64,000 nt of DNA. Source: Acidobacteria bacterium Ga0077534. Its GTDB lineage: Bacteria; Acidobacteriota; Blastocatellia; Pyrinomonadales; Pyrinomonadaceae. Both the position numbers and the translations under genes were made by a program. The DNA lies in assembly GCA_001464455.1 (NCBI GenBank), contig LNEI01000006.1, positions 1 to 64,000 of the forward strand, in the 5' to 3' direction. Within the stretch, counting starts at the first letter, position 1. Each line of letters starts with the position of its first letter. The notes under the pieces are model-generated. The model ran no database searches. It saw nothing but the letters and a program-made list of their open reading frames with translations, and had not been told where the DNA came from. Shown piece after piece: positions 35,125-47,483 of the stretch.

Positions 35125-37131
35125 TTAGCCGCCGACGTGGACGCTTGGGCGAAATTCGGCGTCGGGCTCGGCTTGACGAAGGATCTCGCGGGTGACCGGA
35201 GCCGTATCGCCCTCACCGAAGAGTATGTAACGGATCAGATAGTGGATCGGGTTTCCTTCGCTCCAGCCGAAGTAAACATGCGGGATCTTGTTGGTTTTGT
35301 CGCGGAGATACAGCAGCAATCCGGCTATCGCGTTCGGCACGGCCGGGGCTTTGGCTCGCAGGATTCGGTATCCGTCGATGTCGACGCCGGAGACTTCGAG
35401 TTTGCCGGCAAACTCAGATGCGTCGCCGATCTCAACCTCGAAAAATATGATCGGATCACTGGCCGGAATGTGGTTATCGACGCGTTTCTCGTGTTCCTTG
35501 AAGCGGTATTCGGTCACGTCACCTGTTTCACGACGGTTGGTTACGATACGGATCTCGCCATCGTCGATATCTTCCAGAAACGCCATCGCGGTTTCGTCGA
35601 ACTCGATCTTATTGATACGAAGCTCGGTTGTTCTGAGGGCTCGTGATACAAATGAGGCAAAAATGATCGCCAGGATAAAGAGTGTCGCGATCTGAAGTCC
35701 GCTCGGCTGTTCTACGATATTGACGAGAGTCGTATAAATGAAGATCAGCGTGATCAAAGCGTAGAGTACCCACCGCTTTTCGCCCCGGCGGCGCGACGCG
35801 ATAGCGACGGCGATCGCCGCGGATGTCATCAGAGCGAGAACGCCGGTAGCATAAGCACCGCCCTGAGCGACGACGCTCGCTCCAAAGGCGATCGTGACGA
35901 TAAAGCAGATGCCCGTGAACACAAGTACGAGCGGCCGCACTGCACGTGCCCAATTCGGGGCCATGCCGTATCGCGGCAGATAGCGCGGAACGATGTTGAG
36001 CAATCCCGCCATCGCCGACGCTCCGGCAAACCACAGGATCATGATCGTCGAGACGTCATAGATAGTTCCGAAAACGCCGCCTAGCATCTTATGGGCAAGA
36101 TATGAAACGGCACGTCCATAGGCCTGACCACCCGGCTGAAACGCCTCGGCGGGAATTAGCATCGAGGTAACGATACTACTGCCGACGAGCATGAAACTCA
36201 TGATTATCGCAGCACCACTTAGCAGCTTCTTGCCGTTGCGAATTCGCCCGGGGATCTCGGCTGAGTCATCGATATGTGGGTTTTCGGTATTGGCGATTGG
36301 AGGCTGGGAGGATTCTTTCGCCGCCGTTTCTTCATCGCTCTTAATGAGCGGCATAACGACGACGCCAGTCTCAAAGCCGGAAAGGCCGAGGGCGAGTTTT
36401 GGAAACACCCAGAGCGATGCAAGTGCCAGCCAAAGCAGGCTGCCCGATACGTCCGGGTGAGCCCAAACCGCATTCTGCCAATTCTGAAAAGCCCCCGCAT
36501 CAACAAAGATCAGCTCATACAAACCACGCACGATCGTGACGGAGGTCAGCAACAAAAAGATGACCACGATCCCGACCGCTATACCGATCGCCTCGTTAAA
36601 CCCGCGGAGAAAGACCATGCCAAGTAGCGTGATCAGCACCAGCGTGATCAGCACCGGATGATGCATGAACGGCAGGTAATGCTCGAACAACGGGTTTTCG
36701 ACGATATGAGCGGTCGCGTCGGCGGCCGACAGAGTGATCGTGATGATGAAGCTGGTAGCTACGAAACCGAGCAGGACGAGGACGAACATCTTGCCCTTCC
36801 AGCGAGAGAGCAGATTCTCCAGCATCGAGATCGAGCCGTCGCCGTGCGGGCTGTCTTCAGCCACCCGCTTGTACATAGGCAACGCCCCAAAGAGCGTAAG
36901 AATGACGAGCACGAAGGTCGCAAAAGGGGCAAGAGCACCCGCGGCGAGGAAAGCGATACCTGGCTGGTAACCGAGAGTCGAGAAATAATCGACGCCTGTA
37001 AGACACATCACCTTCCACCAGGAATGTTTCTGATGCTCGTGTTTCACGGGTTCAGAAGGGTCCGCAGTCGGCTTTGTTCCCTTCATCAACCAGTTTCTGA
37101 GGCTGAACTTACTAGATGTCTCGTTTCCCAT
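35125..37131 (-). CDS. APC-superfamily permease
   Basis: The protein is 668 residues from the ATG at 37131 (an in-frame TTG at 37173 adds 14 residues). It has twelve or so membrane spans in the first 480 residues, including [39 protein letters not shown] and [15 protein letters not shown]. This family is annotated as amino-acid transporter in many genomes, with a soluble C-terminal domain of about 170 residues. The substrate cannot be told. Its location beside kup and KdpDE-like genes makes an ion role possible. Confidence 0.8.
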
Positions 37132-37324
37132 AATTGAGTGGCGATCCGGCCGCCTCTCATCGCAGAAAAGCAAATCGGCGCTCTCGACCCGGTCGATAAC
37201 GCCTTTCCGAAGTTCGCTTATTTTTCGATGAAAATCAAATCGCCAGCGGCCTTAGTTACAAAATTGATCGGTTCATATGCAAACCGTTTCTGGTTGCTCG
37301 TGGTGAATTGCTATCCTGTTTGAC

Positions 37325-38716
37325 GTGATAACGGTACCGGAAAAGGTTTTGAGCTTTACAAGGGCGGTTGCTGAGGCTGGCGGCAGGGCGATGCTGAACG
37401 GCGGATGCGTTCGCGACGAACTGATGGGCGTCGAGCCGAAGGATTGGGACGTTGAGGTCTACGCTGTCGAACCCGAGAGGCTGCGAGAGATCGTGGCGAG
37501 ATTTGGCGATGTAAATGCGGTCGGCGAGTCGTTTGCGGTTTACAAGATCGGCAACGATCTCGACGTCAGCTTGCCTCGGCGGGAACGGAAATCGGGCGCG
37601 GGCCATCGTGGATTCGTCGTTGAAGGCGATCCATCGATGTCTTTCGAAGAGGCGTGCTCGCGGCGTGATTTTACGGTAAACGCGATCCTAAAAGATGCGA
37701 TAACGGGCGAGGTCGTCGATCCTTTTAACGGCCGCAGCGATATCGACCGGAAGGTGTTGAAATTGGTTTCGCGTGAGACTTTCGGTGAGGATAGTTTGCG
37801 CGTGCTGCGGGCGGCCCAGTTTGCCGCGAGGTTCGAGTTCTCAGTTGACACGGAAACGATCGAAGTCTGCAAGAATAGCGACGTCACGGATCTGCCGAAA
37901 GAGCGTATTTGGGGTGAGCTCGAAAAGCTTCTGCTTCTCGCACGGCAGCCTTCGATCGGGCTCAAGCTACTTTACGAATTCGGCGTTTTCCGGCAGCTAT
38001 TTCCTGAGATCGAAGCCCTTGTCGGCGTTCCGCAGGAGCCTGAGTGGCATCCTGAGGGCGATGTCGACGTTCATACGATGATGGTCGTCGACGAGGCGCG
38101 GATGCTTATCGACGATCTAGATCATCCGCGAAAGGTCGCCGTCATGCTCGGAGCACTTTGCCACGACCTGGGAAAGCCACCGACTACCGAATTCGTCGAC
38201 GGGAGAATTCGTTCTCGCGGCCACGATGAGGCCGGAGTCGAGCCGACCATCTCGTTTTTGAATAAGCTGGGGATATTCACGCTCGACGGTTTTGACGTGC
38301 GCGAGCAGATCATCCAACTCGTTCGCTATCACCTAAAGCCCGGCGAATACTACAAAACGAAAAACCCCGTTGGCGACGGAGCATTCCGTCGGCTCGCCCG
38401 CAAAGTCGAGCCCGACCTGCTCTACCGAGTCGCCAAAGCCGACAGTCTTGGCCGCTATCCGGAGTGGGACAAGAGCAAAGCGATCTTTGGCTCGGAAGCT
38501 CAGGAGTGGTTTATCGAGAAGGTGCGCGAGCTGCAGGTCGAGAAAAAGGCGCCCGATCCGATCTTGATGGGTCGTCACCTGATTGAATTAGGAATGACGC
38601 CGGGCCGAGAGTTCAAGAAGATCCTCGATGAGATCTATGAGAAACAGTTGGACGGATTAGTTGCGAATCTGGAGGAGGCAAAATTTTTAGCTCATTCGGC
38701 TGGGAAAGAAGACTAG
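37325..38716 (+). CDS. cca: tRNA nucleotidyltransferase (CCA-adding/poly(A) polymerase type) with HD domain
   Basis: The 463-residue protein has the class II nucleotidyltransferase motif LNGGCVRDELMGVEPKDWDVEVY (Asp-x-Asp pair), the RRDFTVNAIL motif B and RAAQFAARFEF. A C-terminal HD phosphohydrolase domain carries HDLGKPPTTEF at about residue 280. It completes or repairs tRNA CCA ends. The start is GTG at 37325. A possible alternative is an A-adding-only enzyme or poly(A) polymerase, which the sequence alone does not exclude. Confidence 0.85.
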   Translation: MITVPEKVLSFTRAVAEAGGRAMLNGGCVRDELMGVEPKDWDVEVYAVEPERLREIVARFGDVNAVGESFAVYKIGNDLDVSLPRRERKSGAGHRGFVVEGDPSMSFEEACSRRDFTVNAILKDAITGEVVDPFNGRSDIDRKVLKLVSRETFGEDSLRVLRAAQFAARFEFSVDTETIEVCKNSDVTDLPKERIWGELEKLLLLARQPSIGLKLLYEFGVFRQLFPEIEALVGVPQEPEWHPEGDVDVHTMMVVDEARMLIDDLDHPRKVAVMLGALCHDLGKPPTTEFVDGRIRSRGHDEAGVEPTISFLNKLGIFTLDGFDVREQIIQLVRYHLKPGEYYKTKNPVGDGAFRRLARKVEPDLLYRVAKADSLGRYPEWDKSKAIFGSEAQEWFIEKVRELQVEKKAPDPILMGRHLIELGMTPGREFKKILDEIYEKQLDGLVANLEEAKFLAHSAGKED

Positions 38717-38754: not shown

Positions 38755-39489
38755 TTAAAGTTTTGTTTTAAGAAAGATCTGTTCCGGAACCGACCGTACC
38801 ACGAACATTATTTGTCGCCATATTCCGAGCGAGTATAACGTGTGCTTTCGTGAGAGATAAGCTTTATAAACCGCTTTGGCGACGCGTTCGGGGCTTGCCG
38901 TGAGTGGTTTCGGAAGCTCCATCTCCGCTGTCATTTTTGTCTCGACGAACCCGGGTTTAACGGTTATCACGTTTACTTTCGTTTTTGCGAGGCGATGGCG
39001 TAGTCCCGCGAGAAACGTTGTAAAGCCAGCCTTTGCCGAGCCATAGATGTAATTGCTCTGTCGCCCGCGTTCGCCGGCGACGGACGAGATGCCGATGATC
39101 GTGCCTTCGTTCCGCGATTCGAGGTCGTTGGCGACAATGGAGACAATCGAGACCGCGCCTGTGTAGTTTGACGAGATGACCTTTTCTGCCTCGGACCAGT
39201 TGTTTTCGGAAACCTTCTGATCACCGAGCGAGCCGATCGAATAAAGCACTACGTCAGGTTTGGCCGTAAGAGACGTGTAGAAATCGCAGTGAGCTGCAGT
39301 ATCTTCGGCATCGAACTCCGCGGCGAATGCCTTTACTCCATGGCGGATCTCAATGTCCTTAACCGATGTTTGAAGCTCCTCCGCCGACCGGGCCGCCAGA
39401 ATGATGTCAAAGCCTTGAGCCGCGAATTCGTGAGCACACGCCAGCCCGATATCCGAACGACCTCCAAGAAGAAGTAGAGTTTTTGCCAT
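38755..39489 (-). CDS. dprE2: DprE2-like short-chain dehydrogenase (decaprenylphosphoryl-2-keto-ribose reductase)
   Basis: This 244-residue SDR protein has the dinucleotide motif LLLLGGRSDIGLACAHEFA near the N-terminus and the catalytic Ser and Tyr-x3-Lys (GISSVAGERGRQSNYIYGSAKAG). With DprE1 it epimerises polyprenyl-phospho-ribose to polyprenyl-phospho-arabinose (pathway knowledge from mycobacteria). The assignment rests on the SDR sequence plus direct linkage to a DprE1-type oxidase. The ATG at 39489 is chosen; a TTG at 39498 is in frame. Confidence 0.85.
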   Translation of the reverse strand: MAKTLLLLGGRSDIGLACAHEFAAQGFDIILAARSAEELQTSVKDIEIRHGVKAFAAEFDAEDTAAHCDFYTSLTAKPDVVLYSIGSLGDQKVSENNWSEAEKVISSNYTGAVSIVSIVANDLESRNEGTIIGISSVAGERGRQSNYIYGSAKAGFTTFLAGLRHRLAKTKVNVITVKPGFVETKMTAEMELPKPLTASPERVAKAVYKAYLSRKHTLYSLGIWRQIMFVVRSVPEQIFLKTKL

Positions 39490-39527
39490 AACTAACAACT
39501 ATAAACTAACAACTGATAACTGCTTTC

Positions 39528-40838
39528 TCAGCTAGTGTTTCTGAGCCTTTTTGCCTGTGCTGACGTAAAACGCCCTGAAGGCACGATGTCGTTGTAACCG
39601 CGCTGAAAGACGTTGGGCTTCATACGTGCGTCTTTGGCCAGATAGATACGGCCGTTGTTTTTCATCACGATCTCATCAAGTTCGTCTAGCAGTCCGAAAA
39701 CCTTTTCGTTGACCTTGAAATCGAGAGCGAGCGTGAAGCCTTCCATCGGAAAGCTCATAAACGAGTTTGGGTGCGGCTTGCCAAAAAGCTTCAGGACCGC
39801 GAGCGGCGAGCCTTCGCCGGACCGAGATATCTTTTCGAGGATCTCTACGACGCCCTCACTTTTGTCGAGCGGGAGAACGAATTGATACTGGACGAAACCA
39901 TTCCTGCCGTAAAGCCTGTTCCAGTCGCGAATGCCGTCGAGAGGATAGAAAAAGGGATCGAAATGAACTATCGACGTCTTTCGCTCGGACAGTTGGCGAT
40001 TGAAATATAGTGTATTAAAGGACTTTATCGTGAGGGGATTTAGTGCGAAGGCCGGTGCGTTGAACGGTATCGACGGACCGCTTTTCGGCGGCAGCCTAAG
40101 CGGGTCGGCCGAATATTGTCTCGGAAGATCGGCCAACTTGGTATGTTCGCCAAGCTGAAGTATCGAGCGTCCTAAACTTTTCCCGCGAGCGGTACAGTCG
40201 AGCCAGGCAACGGAGTAAGTAGAACTCGAGTTATCGGCAAACTGCTTCATTACCGCATCAATGTTCGCCGATTTTATCGAGTTCTGATCGATAAATGCGG
40301 TTTCGATAGGCTGCAAACGAAACCTTGCCCTCAGGATCAGGCCTGTTAAGCCCATTCCTCCGCAGGTTTGCCAGAAAAGAGCGGCGTTCTCGTTCGGGGA
40401 ACAACGTCGGACTACGCCGGTTTCATCCACTAGATCAAAACTAATAACATGCGACGCGAAACCGCCTTCCTTGTGGTGATTTTTCCCGTGAACGTCGGCA
40501 CCGATAGCACCGCCAACGGTTATGAATTTGGTTCCCGGCGTCACGGGCAGAAAAAAGCCCCTTGGCACGATGACGTCGAGAATATCTGAGAAAAGTACCC
40601 CGCTCTCACATTCGATCTCGCCTTTTTCGAGGTCGAGATCGAGGAACTTGTTGAGGCGAAGTGTCGAAAGAATATTGTCGCCCAGCGAGGCGTCGCCATA
40701 TGAGCGGCCGTTTCCGCGTATGGTTATTTCGTCAGAACCCCCGATCAATGCGGCGATCTCGCTCTGTCGCGACGTCTCGGTGAAAGCAGCTTCCACGATT
40801 GGGTAATTTCCCCAATTTGTTACGGTTCTACGACGCAT
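39528..40838 (-). CDS. dprE1: DprE1-like FAD-linked oxidase (decaprenylphosphoryl-ribose oxidase)
   Basis: The 436-residue vanillyl-alcohol-oxidase-family protein has an FAD-binding domain with RGNGRSYGDASLGDN, the ESGVLFSDILDVIVPRGFFLPVTPGT block and GGAIGADVHGKNHHKEG. The C-terminal VLKLFG-x-x-SFPMEGFTLALDF and YLAKDARM align with mycobacterial DprE1. The lysine of the AKD(A/S)R motif is kept, while the benzothiazinone-target Cys position reads Ala (GFTLALDF). It overlaps the upstream ubiA-type gene by 11 bases. Confidence 0.88.
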   Translation of the reverse strand: MRRRTVTNWGNYPIVEAAFTETSRQSEIAALIGGSDEITIRGNGRSYGDASLGDNILSTLRLNKFLDLDLEKGEIECESGVLFSDILDVIVPRGFFLPVTPGTKFITVGGAIGADVHGKNHHKEGGFASHVISFDLVDETGVVRRCSPNENAALFWQTCGGMGLTGLILRARFRLQPIETAFIDQNSIKSANIDAVMKQFADNSSSTYSVAWLDCTARGKSLGRSILQLGEHTKLADLPRQYSADPLRLPPKSGPSIPFNAPAFALNPLTIKSFNTLYFNRQLSERKTSIVHFDPFFYPLDGIRDWNRLYGRNGFVQYQFVLPLDKSEGVVEILEKISRSGEGSPLAVLKLFGKPHPNSFMSFPMEGFTLALDFKVNEKVFGLLDELDEIVMKNNGRIYLAKDARMKPNVFQRGYNDIVPSGRFTSAQAKRLRNTS

Positions 40839-41694
40839 AGAGAATCACTGCAAATGCGACGAGCCAGAGTCCGATCATTGCCTGGATCATCGTGTCCTTG
40901 AGCAGTATCAGCGTCGGTGAGCCGCTTTTTTGCTCGACCATCGCGATCTGCAGGAACCTGAGTAGGCCAATGATGACAAAGATCGACGTTAGATAAACAT
41001 TGTCGGACCTCAGCCGCGTGACGACGTCCTCTGAGACCGTATACATGATGTAGCAAACGATCGTCGTGCCGGCGAGGACGATCAGGCAGTTGTCGATAAA
41101 GGGAAGTGTATAACCTCCGAGAGACGGCCTAAGTGCCGATTTGTCGACATCGAGCAGAAGATCGTCCCGGCGTTTCCCTAATGCGAGACAGCACGCCAGC
41201 AAAAACGTCATCAGGATCAGCCATTTCGAAACTGGAACCCCCACCGCGACACCGCCGGCAAGGACCCGCAGCACAAACCCGACCGCGATAACCGAAATGT
41301 CTATGATAGAAATATGCTTGAGTATCAGGCAATAGAGGATCTGTACCGCGAAATAACCGCCGATGACCGCCAGAAATTCAAGGTTCACCAAAAAAGCCGA
41401 GCTGATCGCCGCCCCACAAAGGAGTAACATTAGAAGGACGGCGGTGCTTCGAGAAACGCTTCCGATCGCGAGCGGCCGATTGCGTTTAACTTCGTGGAGT
41501 TTGTCTTTTTCTAGATCGAAGAGGTCATTGAAAACGTAAACCGCACTTGCTGCTAAACAAAACGACGCGAAAGCCACGGCCAGCCGATGATCGGCGACCA
41601 GCAATCCGATCTTCCCCGCAAAGAAAGCAGGAATAAAGACAAAGAAATTCTTTATCCACTGATGCGGGCGTAGAAGTTTTATAATGTTGGTCAA
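40828..41694 (-). CDS. ubiA: UbiA-type polyprenyl-phosphate phosphoribosyltransferase
   Basis: This 288-residue UbiA-superfamily membrane protein starts MTNIIKLLRPHQWIKNFFVF and has the first Asp-rich motif VFNDLFDLEKDKLHEVKRNRP, with the pattern NDxxDxExD...HxxKRxRP of decaprenyl-phosphate 5-phosphoribosyltransferase (Rv3806c type). The second motif region reads GKRRDDLL. It would transfer 5-phosphoribosyl from PRPP to a polyprenyl phosphate, the first committed step before DprE1/DprE2. It overlaps dprE1. Confidence 0.88.
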   Translation of the reverse strand: MTNIIKLLRPHQWIKNFFVFIPAFFAGKIGLLVADHRLAVAFASFCLAASAVYVFNDLFDLEKDKLHEVKRNRPLAIGSVSRSTAVLLMLLLCGAAISSAFLVNLEFLAVIGGYFAVQILYCLILKHISIIDISVIAVGFVLRVLAGGVAVGVPVSKWLILMTFLLACCLALGKRRDDLLLDVDKSALRPSLGGYTLPFIDNCLIVLAGTTIVCYIMYTVSEDVVTRLRSDNVYLTSIFVIIGLLRFLQIAMVEQKSGSPTLILLKDTMIQAMIGLWLVAFAVILYAS

Positions 41695-41709
41695 AAGGTT
41701 GTTTTTTAG

Positions 41710-41791
41710 CTTTGCGTCTTCTTTGCGACCTTTGCGTTTTAGAAAATGGTTTTAACGCAAAGAACGCAAAGGTCGCCAAGAAACGCAAAGG
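41710..41791. repeat. CTTTGCG / CGCAAAG inverted repeat
   Basis: GCTTTGCGTCTTCTTTGCGACCTTTGCGTT is opposed by AACGCAAAGAACGCAAAGGTCGCCAAGAAACGCAAAG, with a loop near 41745. It fills the gap between the UbiA-type gene and the membrane protein upstream of it. Confidence 0.8.
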
Positions 41792-41797
41792 AAAATC

Positions 41798-43003
41798 CTA
41801 GGTGACTAATTCATGGTTCTGTCCCGAATTTCGAGCCTTGCGGTTCATCTTCATCCAGATCGCGGTCGCTCCGAAAAACAATGTAAAAATACCATATCCT
41901 GCCTGCCCAATGTAGAGGTCAAGCTGGCCTTGTTTTACGGAGTAGACAACTGCGGTCAGCAGGAGGACGTAGATCTGCACGATCGCGCAGTTTAGGAAGA
42001 ACCTAAAAAGATCGGATCTCATCGTTTGTAGCGACAAAACGATCGAGAGCAAAAGCGTCGTTCCTGGAATTAAAACACTTGCATACGGCAGCGTGTCTTC
42101 GACGGCTTTTAGTTTATCCGACTGAACGTGAAGAGGGGCAAAAGCGGCAGGATCGTACACCCAAAAGGGGAGCGTAACCGCCAAAAAAACTACGCCAGAG
42201 ATCGAAAGATACTTGATACCCTGTTTCCAGTCCGCTATCTGAATGAGCAACGATAGAAACAGCGGCATTAACAGAATAAATGTTGACCGCGACGACAGGC
42301 CGATGCCGAGAAGGATGGCGGGCAGGATGCGTTTCCATGCCGGAGAATTTGGATCGGCTAGAGAAGGAGCGAGCAGCCACATCGCGACGACGACGTAGAT
42401 CGTGTTTGCCGTGTAGTCGCCGCCCGTCACAACGTTCTGCATAACCGTTGGGGACATGACTAGAATGACCCAGACCAGTCCCAGAGCCGCGGTGCTGCTT
42501 CCTTCGAAACGGCGATAGACCAGATAGAATGCCGCTAACCAAACGACATTCTGCAATTGGATCAGGCCAACGACGACAAACGGCATCGCGAGCAGCACAG
42601 CTCCAGGCATCGGCGAGATCAGGTTGCCGAGATATGTGGTCAGCCGATAAGGATATCGACCGTTCAAGAATTCCGTCGCGGCTGTTATCAGTGCGTCGTC
42701 AGCATCGGTGCCAACCAGGCCGGGACGGGAGTTTACTATTGGATAAGTGTAAAGAGCGATCGCGGCCAGACCGACGAACGTCGCGATCGCGAAATAGTCA
42801 GCGGTGCGAGCCGACACGCTTGATAAAAACAACGGCAAAAGGAAACGGTACCCGATAAAAACAGCAGCAGTTCCTAGAACAAAGTAGGCTAGAACACCTA
42901 TCGATCCGCCATATTTTAGGGCAGTATCGAAAGACGGTACGAGGAGAAAGATGGAAAGGAGAAGCGGCAGTGCGAATGTTTTTGACATTGGTGATGCCGC
43001 CAT
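41798..43003 (-). CDS. Polytopic membrane protein, GT-C glycosyltransferase-like
   Basis: The protein is 401 residues from the ATG at 43003 (the frame is open 13 codons upstream from a GTG inside a repeat hairpin). It has about ten hydrophobic spans. After an early span comes LVGTDADDALITAATEFLNGRYPYRLTT, an acidic pair in the first outer loop as in GT-C enzymes (mannosyl- and arabinosyl-transferases using polyprenyl-phosphate sugars). No family is recognised with confidence. Adjacent ubiA-dprE1-dprE2 genes make a polyprenyl-phospho-arabinose user the likely role. Confidence 0.6.
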   Translation of the reverse strand: MAASPMSKTFALPLLLSIFLLVPSFDTALKYGGSIGVLAYFVLGTAAVFIGYRFLLPLFLSSVSARTADYFAIATFVGLAAIALYTYPIVNSRPGLVGTDADDALITAATEFLNGRYPYRLTTYLGNLISPMPGAVLLAMPFVVVGLIQLQNVVWLAAFYLVYRRFEGSSTAALGLVWVILVMSPTVMQNVVTGGDYTANTIYVVVAMWLLAPSLADPNSPAWKRILPAILLGIGLSSRSTFILLMPLFLSLLIQIADWKQGIKYLSISGVVFLAVTLPFWVYDPAAFAPLHVQSDKLKAVEDTLPYASVLIPGTTLLLSIVLSLQTMRSDLFRFFLNCAIVQIYVLLLTAVVYSVKQGQLDLYIGQAGYGIFTLFFGATAIWMKMNRKARNSGQNHELVT

Positions 43004-43029: not shown

Positions 43030-43080
43030 CACGAAACAACACGAATTGCCGATGACGGTCTTGGTTCGTGTTGTTTCGTG
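43030..43080. repeat. 16-bp perfect inverted repeat
   Basis: CACGAAACAACACGAA (43030-43045) and TTCGTGTTGTTTCGTG (43065-43080) are exact complements with a 19-base loop. It lies upstream of the GT-C-like gene and downstream of rpoD and may serve as terminator or leader structure. Confidence 0.85.
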
Positions 43081-43100: not shown

Positions 43101-44831
43101 TTACTTACCTTCTAAAAATGCCTTCAACCGACGCGAACGCGACGGGTGACGCAGCTTTCTCAGAGCTTTTGCTTCGATCTGACGGATACGTTCACGAGTA
43201 ACGGCAAAGTGCTGGCCGACCTCTTCGAGGGTGTGTTCCGAGCCCGTGTTGCCGAGGCCGAAACGCATTTTGATGACCTTTTCCTCACGGGGGGTGAGAG
43301 TCGCCAAAACTTCATCAGTTATCTCACGTAAGTTAGAGAAAGTAACTGATTCTGCTGGGTTTAGTATCGACTTGTCCTCGATAAAATCCCCCAGATGCGA
43401 ATCCTCTTCCTCGCCGATCGGTGTTTCGAGAGAGATCGGTTCCTGAGCGATCTTAAGGACCTTGCGGACCTTCGAAACCGGAATGTCCATCCGCTTTGCG
43501 ATCTCTTCGCTCGTTGGTTCGCGGCCGAGTTCCTGAACAAGCAGACGCGAGGTGCGGATCAGCTTGTTGATCGTCTCGATCATGTGAACCGGGATGCGAA
43601 TCGTGCGAGCCTGATCGGCGATAGCACGCGTGATCGCCTGTCGGATCCACCACGTTGCGTAGGTCGAGAATTTGTATCCGCGACGCCACTCGAATTTGTC
43701 TACGGCCTTCATCAGGCCGATGTTGCCTTCCTGGATCAGATCGAGGAACTGCAAACCGCGGTTGGTGTATTTCTTCGCGATCGAAACGACGAGACGCAGG
43801 TTGGCTTCGACCAACTCTCGTTTCGCCTTGTTCGTGTCAAATTCACCGACCGATATCGTCTGGTAAGATCGTTTGATCTCAACCGCCTGCATGTGATAGC
43901 GGGCCTCGATCTCGGCGATCGCTGCTTTTGCGTCAGCGATCTTCTGATTCAGCTCTTTCTTTTCAGGAGCTGCAGGTTTGGCATCGAGCCGTTCTTTCCA
44001 TTTGTTGATATTTCGCTCGTGTTTGCGAATATCCTCGACCACCTTTCGGATCGCTGCGATCAGAACCTGGCGTGAGCGCTCGGTCAGGTTGAGATGCTTG
44101 ATCTCGGTCGCGATATCAAGCCGAAGCCGTGCGGTCTTGCGCTTCAGCGTCAGGAGTTTCTTGGTCTTCTTACCACCAGATTTTTCTTGCTCAGCCAGCA
44201 GGGCGACCCATGACTTGAGCACCGGCTGGAAGTTCTGCCGGATGCTCTCGAGGCCTTCGAGTGTCCAGCGAAGGTACTCTTCTGCCTTATCTTCTTCTAT
44301 CGAGATCTCGGCCTGTTCGCTGAAAACGACGGTCTCGCGAATGCTCGCCTTTCCGGCGGCAAGGTCGTCGCCGATCTTGAGCAGACGCTCGACCGCGATC
44401 GGAGAACGCGATATCGCTTTGTGAGTTTTTATCTGGCCCCGCTCGATGCGCTTTGCGATCGTAACTTCGCCTTCGCGGTTGAGCAGCGGCACGACACCCA
44501 TTTCGCGCAGGTAAAGCCGTACGGGGTCGTTAGATTTGTCGAGAACACCGGCCGAGAGATCTAGATCCAGATCTTCCTCGTCAGTCTCTTCTTTTTCTTC
44601 TTCCTCGTCGTCGAGAGCCAGACTCGACGCACGTTCCAATAACTGGGCGTCAGTTTCGGCAACCGAGATATTTGCACCCTCAAGGCGCTCCAAAACATCC
44701 TCGATGTCGTCGGGCGACAACATATTCTCCGGGAGTTCCCGGTGGAGTTGGTCGAGGCTCAACCCCTTCTTTCGCCTGCCGAGAGCCATCAGGCGATCCA
44801 TTAAGTCTTCTTTTTCGTCGTAATCAGCCAT
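43101..44831 (-). CDS. rpoD: RNA polymerase primary sigma factor RpoD
   Basis: The 576-residue protein has region 1.1 at the N-terminus, an acidic [14 protein letters not shown] stretch, then region 1.2 ([16 protein letters not shown]). Regions 2 to 4 follow: [40 protein letters not shown], and the -35-binding [25 protein letters not shown]. It directs housekeeping transcription. It follows dnaG as in the macromolecular-synthesis operon, 121 bases downstream of its stop. Confidence 0.97.
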
Positions 44832-44952: not shown

Positions 44953-46806
44953 TCACAATTCGACAACACGACGCTGCAAATCGCGGCGAATTTTTTCGAG
45001 TTCGAGCTGTTCATAGGTGAGTTGGTTAAAGAGCTCGGCGTCGCCGGTCTGTTCGGCGAGCGAAGCTTCGCGGCTGATCTCGATTATGCGGTTTGAGATC
45101 GCCATATTTCGCAACGAAAATACACAATTTTCCGCATCATGAAGCACCTGGTCGAGCACTTCTTCCTTCGCCCGACGCGGAGGTGTGCTAAGTATTTGCT
45201 GAGCGAGGTCAAGAGCGTTCTCGTCGTCCCCGACCGTTTCCATTAGGGTTTCGGCGGTTATTTCGCCCCCGCGATTGTGGATCTCGATGAATGCGTGAAA
45301 TAGTTCGCCGCTCGCTAGATTCTCAAAATCGCTCGGTTCGAGTTGCGGCAGAACGATCTCTCGCAGGTCGGTATCATGCACGAGGAGCTCGAGCAAGCGG
45401 CGTTCGGCGAGCGTGATCTTTGCCCTTGCAGCTTTCGAGATCCGCTGAGTGACGTACTCGGTCGTTTCGTGCGAAACGGTTTTCAGCGTCGACCAGAGCT
45501 CGCGACGAAGCCCCGCGTCTTCGATATGGTAAAACGCCATCGCCTGATCAAAGCTCTCGCGCCGCTGGATGTTGTTGCGGATCGCCGATATCACCGGAAG
45601 AAATTCCTCGATAGCCTCAGCTTTCTGCTTGGCATTATTGAGGTTACGGCCCTCGACCGACGCATCGAGAGCGAAGCGGAGAAACGGCGTCGCCCTTCCG
45701 CGACTTTCGTTGTAGGCGGCCAGCCCGTTTTCGCGAATGAAGTCGTCGGGATCCTTGCCGTCAGGCAGGACGAGGACCTTGATGTCGAATTCCTGCGGCA
45801 AAAGATGCTCGATCGCACGCCTCGCGGCCTTTTTTCCGGCGGCATCGCCGTCGTAGTTAATGACGACTGCCTTTGCAAAACGCCCGAGCAGCTTCGCCTG
45901 CTGGTCAGTAAACGCTGTTCCGAGGCTCGCCGCGACGTTTGTTACACCAAATTGGGCGAGGGCGATGAGGTCGAGATAACCCTCGACAATGATCGCGAAT
46001 TTTTTGCGACGGATGTCGTCCTTTGCCTGAAACAGGCCGTAAAGATGCTCGCTTTTGACGTATGCGGCGGTTTCGGGTGAGTTAAGATATTTCGGCTGGT
46101 CGTCCGGGCTCAAAGCCCTCGCTCCGAAAGCCACGGGTTTCCCGTTCACATCGAGAACAGGGAACATCAGCCGGTTTCTAAATCTGTCGTAAACTCTCTC
46201 TTTTTCTTCATTTACCGAAACCAGCCCGCTCTGCTCGATCAGCTTTTCGTCAATCTTTTTTTCGCGGAGCAGATTAAGCAGACCGTCCCATTTGTCAGGC
46301 GAATAGCCGATGCGGAACTGTTTTTGGATCTCTTCGGAAATACCGCGTTGCTCCAAATACCTTTTCGCCTCTTTCGCTTTTCCACTTTTCCCCTGTAGTG
46401 CTTCCTCCCAAAACTCGACCGCTATCTGATTAAGCTCGACGATCTGCTCGGAGAGCTTTTTTGTTTCCTCGCGTTTCTTCTTGTTCCGCTCGTAATCGAC
46501 ATCATCGACCGGCTCGGGCAGCATCACACCGCTGATCTCGGCCACGCGTTTGACAGCCTCGGGGAAATTCAGCCCTTCCATCTCCATGATGAAATTAAAA
46601 GCCGTCCCGCCTTTGCCGCAGCCAAAACACTTATAAAACCCTTTAGAAGGATTGACCGAAAACGAAGGCGATTTCTCCTGATGAAACGGACAACAAGCCA
46701 TCCAGTTCGCCCCTTTCTTCTTCAGATCCTGAGCATACGGCTGTATTATCCGCACCAAGTCGGCACGGTTCTTCAGGTCGTCGATGAAGTATTGGGGGTA
46801 GAGCAT
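44953..46806 (-). CDS. dnaG: DNA primase
   Basis: The protein is 617 residues from ATG 46806 (MLYPQYFIDDLKNRADLV); an upstream in-frame start would add 11 residues. The CHC2 zinc domain carries CCPFHQEKSPSF and KCFGCGKGG. The TOPRIM core has IVEGYLDLIALAQFG and INYDGDAAGKKAARRA, and a DnaB-binding helical C-terminus follows. It makes RNA primers at the replication fork. It is followed by rpoD. Confidence 0.96.
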   Translation of the reverse strand: MLYPQYFIDDLKNRADLVRIIQPYAQDLKKKGANWMACCPFHQEKSPSFSVNPSKGFYKCFGCGKGGTAFNFIMEMEGLNFPEAVKRVAEISGVMLPEPVDDVDYERNKKKREETKKLSEQIVELNQIAVEFWEEALQGKSGKAKEAKRYLEQRGISEEIQKQFRIGYSPDKWDGLLNLLREKKIDEKLIEQSGLVSVNEEKERVYDRFRNRLMFPVLDVNGKPVAFGARALSPDDQPKYLNSPETAAYVKSEHLYGLFQAKDDIRRKKFAIIVEGYLDLIALAQFGVTNVAASLGTAFTDQQAKLLGRFAKAVVINYDGDAAGKKAARRAIEHLLPQEFDIKVLVLPDGKDPDDFIRENGLAAYNESRGRATPFLRFALDASVEGRNLNNAKQKAEAIEEFLPVISAIRNNIQRRESFDQAMAFYHIEDAGLRRELWSTLKTVSHETTEYVTQRISKAARAKITLAERRLLELLVHDTDLREIVLPQLEPSDFENLASGELFHAFIEIHNRGGEITAETLMETVGDDENALDLAQQILSTPPRRAKEEVLDQVLHDAENCVFSLRNMAISNRIIEISREASLAEQTGDAELFNQLTYEQLELEKIRRDLQRRVVEL

Positions 46807-46823
46807 GAGTCTCGCACCCATCG

Positions 46824-47483
46824 CTAAGGTAGAAGCCAAAAATCAACCGAGTTAGTGTCCGAGAATGGATAATCCGACCGCTGCCTAAAAAAACGAATTC
46901 GACCTACAGTCGATTTGCTGAACTTCGACTTGAGCTCGCTTACTGCCTTTTGAAATTGCGGCCTGGATTCCCGCGAGAATACGGCGTTAACTCGAAGTCG
47001 TGGGTTGGCGTTTGCCAGCTCACCTATATATTTGTACACGGTGCGATAAGAACAGATGCCATCTGCATCCGTGTGAAAAAAGAAGGGTTCCACACCATCA
47101 GGAATCGTTAGGTTCCATGTTTTCGATTTGGGAATTGGCCTATCGCGCGGAAACATCAAAAACTTTAGCCTGGCCTCGCCCCTTTCATCCCCGCGAATTA
47201 ATGGTATCGGCGGTGAACCTGTACCCGGTCTTCCGGTACCGGAAGAGAAGCGAATTTCGAGGTAGAGCTTATTAATTAGGTGATCCTTGGAACCCGACAC
47301 GATCGCAACGCCATTCTTTGTAGGGTTATTGCGTAAAACAATGTCAAAGTTGTCAATCCGGGCGAGCATTTCATCACATTCGATAACCGAAAAATCATCG
47401 ATGACTTCGGCGACGGGATCCGCCTGAGCAAGGATATTTGTCGTAAAGAAAAGAATCTGCGCAAGTAAAATGAAAGCTTTCAT
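46824..47483 (-). CDS. Hypothetical secreted protein
   Basis: The protein is 219 residues from ATG 47483, with signal peptide KAFILLAQILFFTTNILAQA. The mature part has an ECDEMLARIDNFDIVLRNNP segment, which recalls small acidobacterial secreted proteins of unknown role. It ends 17 bases before dnaG and may be co-transcribed with it. No catalytic motif was recognised. Confidence 0.7.
   Translation of the reverse strand: MKAFILLAQILFFTTNILAQADPVAEVIDDFSVIECDEMLARIDNFDIVLRNNPTKNGVAIVSGSKDHLINKLYLEIRFSSGTGRPGTGSPPIPLIRGDERGEARLKFLMFPRDRPIPKSKTWNLTIPDGVEPFFFHTDADGICSYRTVYKYIGELANANPRLRVNAVFSRESRPQFQKAVSELKSKFSKSTVGRIRFFRQRSDYPFSDTNSVDFWLLP

Follow-up and report, generated by a model that had tools for sequence, protein, structure and literature searches.

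Described pentofuranose systems and the acidobacterial cluster

Systems in which GT-C enzymes use lipid-linked pentofuranose or arabinofuranose in Gram-negative bacteria are already in print, and this work concerns a related cluster of four genes in Acidobacteria bacterium Ga0077534 (Acidobacteriota; Pyrinomonadaceae), located within the first 64,000 nucleotides of contig LNEI01000006.1 (hereafter the window). In this cluster, homologues of UbiA, DprE1 and DprE2 (the donor trio) lie beside a polytopic protein whose model has a GT-C fold (the GT-C candidate), and we hypothesize that the four genes probably constitute a three-component-type system that adds D-arabinofuranose outside the cytoplasmic membrane. 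The direct evidence consists of the homology of the genes, the GT-C fold of the model, a conserved acidic motif and the linkage of the genes, which are arranged as follows:

41798-43003, minus strand: candidate polytopic glycosyltransferase of GT-C fold, 401 aa (AlphaFold2 model, VIA-align, conserved acidic motif)
40828-41694, minus strand: UbiA-family polyprenyl-phosphate 5-phosphoribosyltransferase of the DPPR synthase/PPPRS type (NF008977, PDB match, motif)
39528-40838, minus strand: DprE1-type polyprenylphosphoryl-ribose 2-oxidase with flavin adenine dinucleotide (FAD) (NF053785, 4aut)
38755-39489, minus strand: DprE2-type SDR, a predicted 2-keto-pentofuranose reductase (NF053786, PRK07102, PDB match)

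The polyprenyl-phosphate-pentofuranose systems of the Citrobacter youngae type are described in PMC11127046 as composed of a PPPRS, a MATE flippase and a GT-C enzyme of family GT136, and the same source reports DprE1/DprE2 homologues in candidate systems of arabinofuranose-containing glycans. The acidobacterial cluster is similar in its UbiA-type PPPRS, in its enzymes that would epimerise the sugar after ribose transfer and in a GT-C protein that would act last. It differs in that the UbiA protein carries no fused phosphatase motif, no linked flippase gene was found and the GT-C candidate, at 401 aa, has no C-terminal carbohydrate-binding module. With the mycobacterial decaprenylphosphoryl-arabinose pathway (Rv3806c, Rv3807c, DprE1, DprE2, AftA-D and Emb), the cluster shares the UbiA, DprE1 and DprE2 homologues, and AftA, AftB and Emb are among the fold matches of the GT-C candidate; unlike that pathway, it has no linked phosphatase that we found and its genome no GtrA-family protein, and neither the GT-C candidate as a single sequence nor its family profile matched the sequences of solved Aft/Emb chains.

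Pyrinomonas methylaliphatogenes, of the same family as the organism studied here, is described with a Gram-negative cell wall (PMC4644332). In Pseudomonas paraeruginosa, whose pili carry D-arabinofuranose, the cluster PSPA7_6245-6251 includes ubiA and TfpW (PMC12369383), and it resembles the present cluster in a D-arabinofuranose donor pathway and a UbiA protein feeding a GT-C transferase; according to that source the transferase belongs to a pilin cassette, whereas no pilin family was found among the 16 window proteins scanned. The noeCHOP genes for Nod-factor arabinosylation in Azorhizobium, with enzyme roles described by similarity (PMC2443382), likewise include homologues of mycobacterial arabinose-donor genes (noeC, noeH and noeO) in a Gram-negative bacterium, and unlike the window cluster they are linked to Nod-factor genes and have a known acceptor. 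Plasmids of Paracoccus, Rhizobium etli and Salipiger carry ubiA-gtrA-dprE1-dprE2 clusters in which the trio enzymes keep the order seen here and the UbiA proteins are longer (513-546 aa); the gtrA-type gene is annotated in Paracoccus and Salipiger, while a short unnamed open reading frame (ORF) occupies its place in R. etli. When an Azospirillum plasmid is included, UbiA (488-546 aa), DprE1 and an SDR gene are found in all four and GtrA is annotated in three of the four. Given the longer UbiA and the GtrA of these alphaproteobacterial plasmids, the window cluster looks like a stripped form. The larger membrane proteins encoded downstream in R. etli and Paracoccus showed no clear similarity to the GT-C candidate (best E 0.0029 in a set of 11 proteins).

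Fold of the GT-C candidate and homology of the donor trio

The GT-C candidate gave no sequence match in Pfam, NCBIfam or the PDB, and its family profile matched no PDB sequence; when seven family members were scanned at E up to 1, two weakly matched ALG3, which is a GT-C family too (best E 0.0026), and the remaining matches were scattered. An AlphaFold2 model of the 41798-43003 product, built with seven sequences, reached a mean predicted local distance difference test score of 80.2 and a predicted template-modelling score of 0.84. Foldseek alone was weak (best match ArnT at E 0.016, none at 0.001), but VIA-align, run on the 1000 best chains from Foldseek, returned GT-C-fold proteins in rows 1-37 with Z from 19.1 to 8.2 and then dropped to 4.8 in the next row; since helical models may reach Z of about 13 with unrelated folds, weight is placed on this gap and on the uniform list rather than on single scores. 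The PIG-U and translocon chains among these matches are presumably GT-C-fold proteins as well and were counted as such. The best match was GPI mannosyltransferase I (Z 19.1, root-mean-square deviation (rmsd) 5.3, 298 aligned residues), followed by ALG3 (Z 16.6), ArnT (Z 15.9) and PimE (Z 15.5, rmsd 4.4, 281 aligned), with the arabinosyltransferases AftA (Z 11.9), AftB (Z 11.2, rmsd 4.0, 282 aligned) and EmbB (Z 8.8) further down. The GT-C fold of this product is therefore well supported at the level of the predicted model.

The acidic motif GTDADDAL occupies residues 98-105. In a 20-sequence alignment of the family, the window sequence included, the residues G98, D100, A104, P118, T123, G134, Q151, G233 and R239 never vary, and D103 occurs in 18 of the 20; as two of these sequences were found through the motif, its conservation is no evidence for those two. 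In the model, D100 opens a predicted helix spanning residues 100-113. According to PMC12041299, an Asp at the tip of juxtamembrane helix 1 is essential in GT-CA enzymes and in AftB lies within a DD motif, and the predicted position of the conserved acidic motif fits such a residue. We infer that the protein is a glycosyltransferase. The earlier note on this DNA had anticipated both the fold, whose absence would have spoken against it, and the GTDADDAL loop, and both were borne out; its further idea of a new transferase holds in the sense that the family is unnamed in the three libraries searched. The comparison with AftA, AftB and Emb proteins that it had proposed gave a mixed outcome, matching them in fold and placing mannosyltransferases above them.

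In the donor trio, DprE1 matched NF053785 with E 3e-119 and 399 bits, below the curated NCBIfam cut-off of 500, and this is by far its best family despite the score. Its best PDB sequence match is 4aut, a DprE1 (E 3.7e-77), with the HGKNHH and AKD motifs retained in the alignment; it contains the PF01565 FAD-binding domain, and its alignment to DprE1 spans residues 29-416 of 436. The Pfam ALO family (PF04030), tried as a probe for DprE1, gave no match in the genome, and at what we take to be the position of the benzothiazinone-targeted cysteine the protein has Ala. The UbiA protein contains PF01040 and matched the decaprenyl-phosphate phosphoribosyltransferase model NF008977 with E 7.7e-64 and 216 bits (cut-off 234), and two further curated NCBIfam models also below their cut-offs (199 against 207 bits and 162 against 474); its best PDB sequence match is the Rv3806c-type enzyme 8j8j (E 1.3e-36). 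The NDxxDxxxD motif is present as NDLFDLEKD at residues 56-64, and PMC11127046 describes the Asn and Asp residues of a motif of this kind as required. The DxDGT motif of a fused HAD phosphatase is absent from this protein, so that a separate phosphatase would be needed. DprE2 matched NF053786 with E 1.4e-60 and 205 bits (cut-off 250), its best NCBIfam model being the generically named SDR PRK07102 (324 bits, cut-off 267), and among PDB sequences a DprE2 chain comes first (E 5.3e-34), ahead of the next SDR at 9.6e-18. Because all three proteins score under the curated cut-offs of their named models, we regard the trio as divergent homologues. The row of UbiA, DprE1 and DprE2 read in the earlier note was thus recovered as consecutive homologues, and all four ORFs are open, at or close to the coordinates given there.

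Layout, linkage and distribution

On the minus strand the order is dnaG-rpoD-GT-C-ubiA-dprE1-dprE2, after which cca follows on the opposite strand. The labels dnaG and rpoD are our own reading of the protein sequences, which we take to be DnaG and RpoD. The flanking and intergenic features are:

44953-46839, minus strand: dnaG
43101-44831, minus strand: rpoD
43030-43080, minus strand: inverted repeat with perfectly matching 16-bp arms and a T-run after it, a terminator-like hairpin between rpoD and the GT-C gene
41700-41795, minus strand: dispersed inverted repeat resembling a repetitive extragenic palindrome or miniature inverted-repeat transposable element (REP/MITE-like), outside the pathway, between the GT-C gene and ubiA
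37325-38716, opposite strand: cca, convergent with the cluster (Pfam support)

The survey of the order covered 119 genomes, including that of the window. The GT-C family occurs in eight of them, and close relatives of both UbiA (at least 64% identity) and DprE1 (at least 57%) in four (the window's genome, G073, G077 and G054), all of which also carry the GT-C gene; none of the 119 genomes had the close ubiA/dprE1 pair without it (Fisher 8.8e-6, uncorrected for relatedness). These counts rest on the ubiA/dprE1 pair and leave out the DprE2 of G054. The full order rpoD-GTC-ubiA-dprE1-dprE2-cca is kept in G073. In G077 the DprE1 is present as two fragments at contig ends and regulator and MFS genes separate DprE2 from cca, while G054 has its genes split between two contigs, the GT-C gene at a contig edge. 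Between the window's genome and G073 the GT-C protein is only 53.6% identical, against 81.6% for UbiA, 77.0% for DprE2, 73.5% for DprE1, 79.3% for Cca, 87.7% for DnaG and 94.6% for RpoD. The fastest divergence of the GT-C protein fits either a changing acceptor or a weaker constraint, and it is what a transferase facing changing acceptors might show.

In 20 further genus regions the GT-C gene is absent; rpoD stands beside cca in ten of them (two with a short ORF between), was not seen beside cca in nine, and one region stops at a contig end. The GT-C gene thus seems to be an optional gene at the rpoD-cca site, independent of the trio. The rpoD/dnaG tree and the GT-C tree conflict on the placement of G077 and G065, and with such mixed support gain and loss of the cassette are not separated. 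Base composition was also considered as an indication of horizontal gain, and the difference in GC between the four genes (51-52%) and the window (53%) is not decisive.

In one genome of the order, G088, the GT-C homologue lies directly before a Wzz/GNVR polysaccharide chain-length protein (L053 1971-5796), which hints at an exopolysaccharide as acceptor; a peptidase family C25 protein (L053 1-1779) adjoins the same homologue. The genus neighbours of more distant UbiA relatives include sugar-nucleotide, polysaccharide-deacetylase and glycosyltransferase genes, among others.

Among 396 sampled Acidobacteriota genomes, DprE1 matched at E 1e-40 or better in 83, five of them above the curated cut-off, and the GT-C family in 14, a count that contains the genome of the window and one weak match. 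When named genomes were scanned with the GT-C alignment, ten loci came up, all from metagenome-assembled genome records; the loci that match genomes of the window's genus carry the labels Pyrinomonadaceae, Blastocatellia, Chloracidobacterium, Acidobacteria/Acidobacteriota or simply bacterium, and three other loci were labelled delta proteobacterium, Chloroflexi and Pseudomonadaceae. The GT-C candidate had no match among phages and a single one among plasmids, a protein annotated as hypothetical on a plasmid of Azospirillum sp. TSH100 (L170 5677-6837), which sits with WbaP and an O-antigen-ligase-family gene; the trio is missing from the 12.5 kb inspected there. DprE1 has its best plasmid matches in two Bacteroidota (51.5% and 48.6% identity), with the order ubiA-dprE1-dprE2 in one and dprE1-dprE2-ubiA in the other, and no GT-C gene of this family in the stretch seen. 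In the Flammeovirgaceae plasmid, the trio is followed by a protein of 406 aa that was considered as a possible GT-C protein and rejected, as it shows one predicted membrane segment by hydropathy and no family match. A Persicobacter region holds relatives of DprE1, DprE2 and UbiA, again without a GT-C gene of this family.

As for the details of the locus, the GT-C gene begins with ATG, and a longer GTG ORF reaching 43042 would begin within the hairpin; the TTG start of ubiA is uncertain, the UbiA and DprE1 ORFs overlap by 11 bp, and for dprE2 (ORF 38755-39498) the ATG at 39489 is the better start. The hairpin has two exact arms (z -5.1), and a perfect inverted repeat with a T-run after rpoD suggests that the cluster may be transcribed separately from it. 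In a scan for consensus promoters and terminators the number of sites did not exceed that in shuffled sequences, and the hairpin is not among its terminator sites, the loop limit of the scan being 8. The REP/MITE-like repeat has 25 matches in its own genome, counting itself and both orientations of the palindrome (z -6.6); at its place, G073 and G077 have a 4-nt overlap between the ORFs of the GT-C protein and UbiA, assuming a TTG start. Beyond cca, a 682-aa protein (35125-37173) looks like an amino-acid permease, yet neither Pfam nor NCBIfam gives it a family at E 0.1.

Proposed pathway and alternative explanations

By analogy with the three-component pentofuranose systems of PMC11127046, we infer each reaction, as well as the donor of the GT-C protein, the phosphatase, the flippase and the acceptor. 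After phosphoribosyl transfer by the UbiA protein, an unlinked phosphatase would remove the 5'-phosphate, and oxidation of C2 by DprE1 followed by reduction by DprE2 would yield polyprenyl-phosphate-arabinofuranose, which a flippase encoded elsewhere and outside the GtrA family may then turn over. Outside the membrane, the GT-C protein would use this lipid as donor, with the acidic motif of its first loop as putative catalytic site, to glycosylate an acceptor in the periplasm that is probably a polysaccharide for export. We consider an arabinosyltransferase role of the GT-C candidate probable.

Several observations weigh against this proposal. In fold comparison the best scores belong to mannosyltransferases and related proteins, above Aft and Emb. 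The scan of 16 window proteins (five without any family) turned up neither a phosphatase nor a flippase family, unlinked phosphatases and MATE-type flippases not having been searched, and the genome gave no GtrA-family match in a search that found GtrA in 7 of 14 genomes, including Corynebacterium glutamicum. Half of the eight GT-C genomes of the order (G062, G065, G074 and G088, 87-97% complete) have no strong DprE1 match: in the first three the site reads rpoD-GTC-cca without a trio, with weak DprE1 matches elsewhere (E 9.1e-8, 3.1e-4 and 4.6e-9, respectively), and in G088 the DprE1 match is also weak (E 1.5e-7), while G065 and G088 have no UbiA match at all. Conversely, distant DprE1 relatives (39-45%) without a GT-C gene of this family were seen in three genomes, G001, G044 and G038. 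Elsewhere in the phylum, none of 22 regions around DprE1 relatives contained this GT-C family; the DprE1 ORF was recovered in 18 of them and a UbiA relative in seven, and because the picking of longest ORFs missed DprE1 in four (L137, L139, L143 and L145), these neighbour counts are lower bounds. Nine of the 13 other GT-C genomes had their regions examined, and within the DNA retrieved none had relatives of UbiA or DprE1. The survey of gene order suggested in the earlier note therefore cuts both ways, with the full order in G073 and three genomes that keep the GT-C gene at the same site without the trio. Its reading is supported as to the donor trio and the fold; transfer of arabinose by the GT-C protein is a prediction, against which speak the four genomes lacking a strong DprE1 match and the scores that lean to mannosyltransferases.

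A first alternative is a GT-C protein that was at the rpoD-cca site before the cassette landed beside it and that uses another polyprenyl-phosphate sugar (mannose, glucose or ribose), the polyprenyl-phosphate-arabinose being used by another GT-C enzyme of the genome. This explanation, which we rate as somewhat unlikely, would account for the gene without cassette in three genomes, for the higher scores of mannosyltransferases and for the lack of linkage in the other regions of the phylum seen. The genome also has other possible users, with nine PMT_2 matches elsewhere, eight of them over the cut-off, and no match to Pfam GT87 (PF09594); the clustering of the Azospirillum homologue with WbaP and an O-antigen-ligase-family gene points the same way. 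It is opposed by the overlap of the GT-C ORF with that of ubiA in two genomes and by the constant company of the close ubiA/dprE1 pair with the GT-C gene within the order. Alternatively, the GT-C protein may tolerate different donors and add whichever lipid-linked sugar is available, so that gain or loss of the cassette would switch the sugar at one locus. The same locus with and without cassette, the distant UbiA relatives elsewhere in G062 (37%) and G074 (36%) and the description of the GT136 enzyme ORF12 as promiscuous for ribofuranose or xylofuranose donors (PMC11127046) are compatible with such tolerance, but a pentofuranose made via UbiA cannot be the general donor, since G065 has no UbiA match; we think this explanation improbable. 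It is very improbable that the trio makes a different lipid-linked pentose or acts outside this pathway: the divergence from the curated DprE1 and DprE2 families, with all three proteins under the cut-offs of their named models, would allow it, and it is opposed by the long alignments and retained motifs, by the ubiA-dprE1-dprE2 order in a Bacteroidota plasmid and by ORFs that are all open and 73-82% identical in G073.

Returning to the proposed arabinosylation system, what is new as far as our searches go is an unnamed GT-C family found with and without a donor cassette at one site; among the titles listed in literature searches on Acidobacteria with arabinan or arabinofuranose, none was on this pathway in Acidobacteria. 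The family thereby joins the likely users of lipid-linked sugars, and the genomes of the order provide natural pairs with and without the arabinose cassette. It is conceivable, if unlikely, that this orphan family is a modular platform in which the locus behind rpoD keeps the acceptor and gain or loss of the donor cassette changes the sugar; in that case some Pyrinomonadaceae would arabinosylate a surface glycan, and in sister lineages enzymes of this family would attach a different sugar. Should the GT-C protein arabinosylate a glycan of the envelope, the range of arabinofuranose surface sugars would come to include this phylum, where DprE1 homologues are common.

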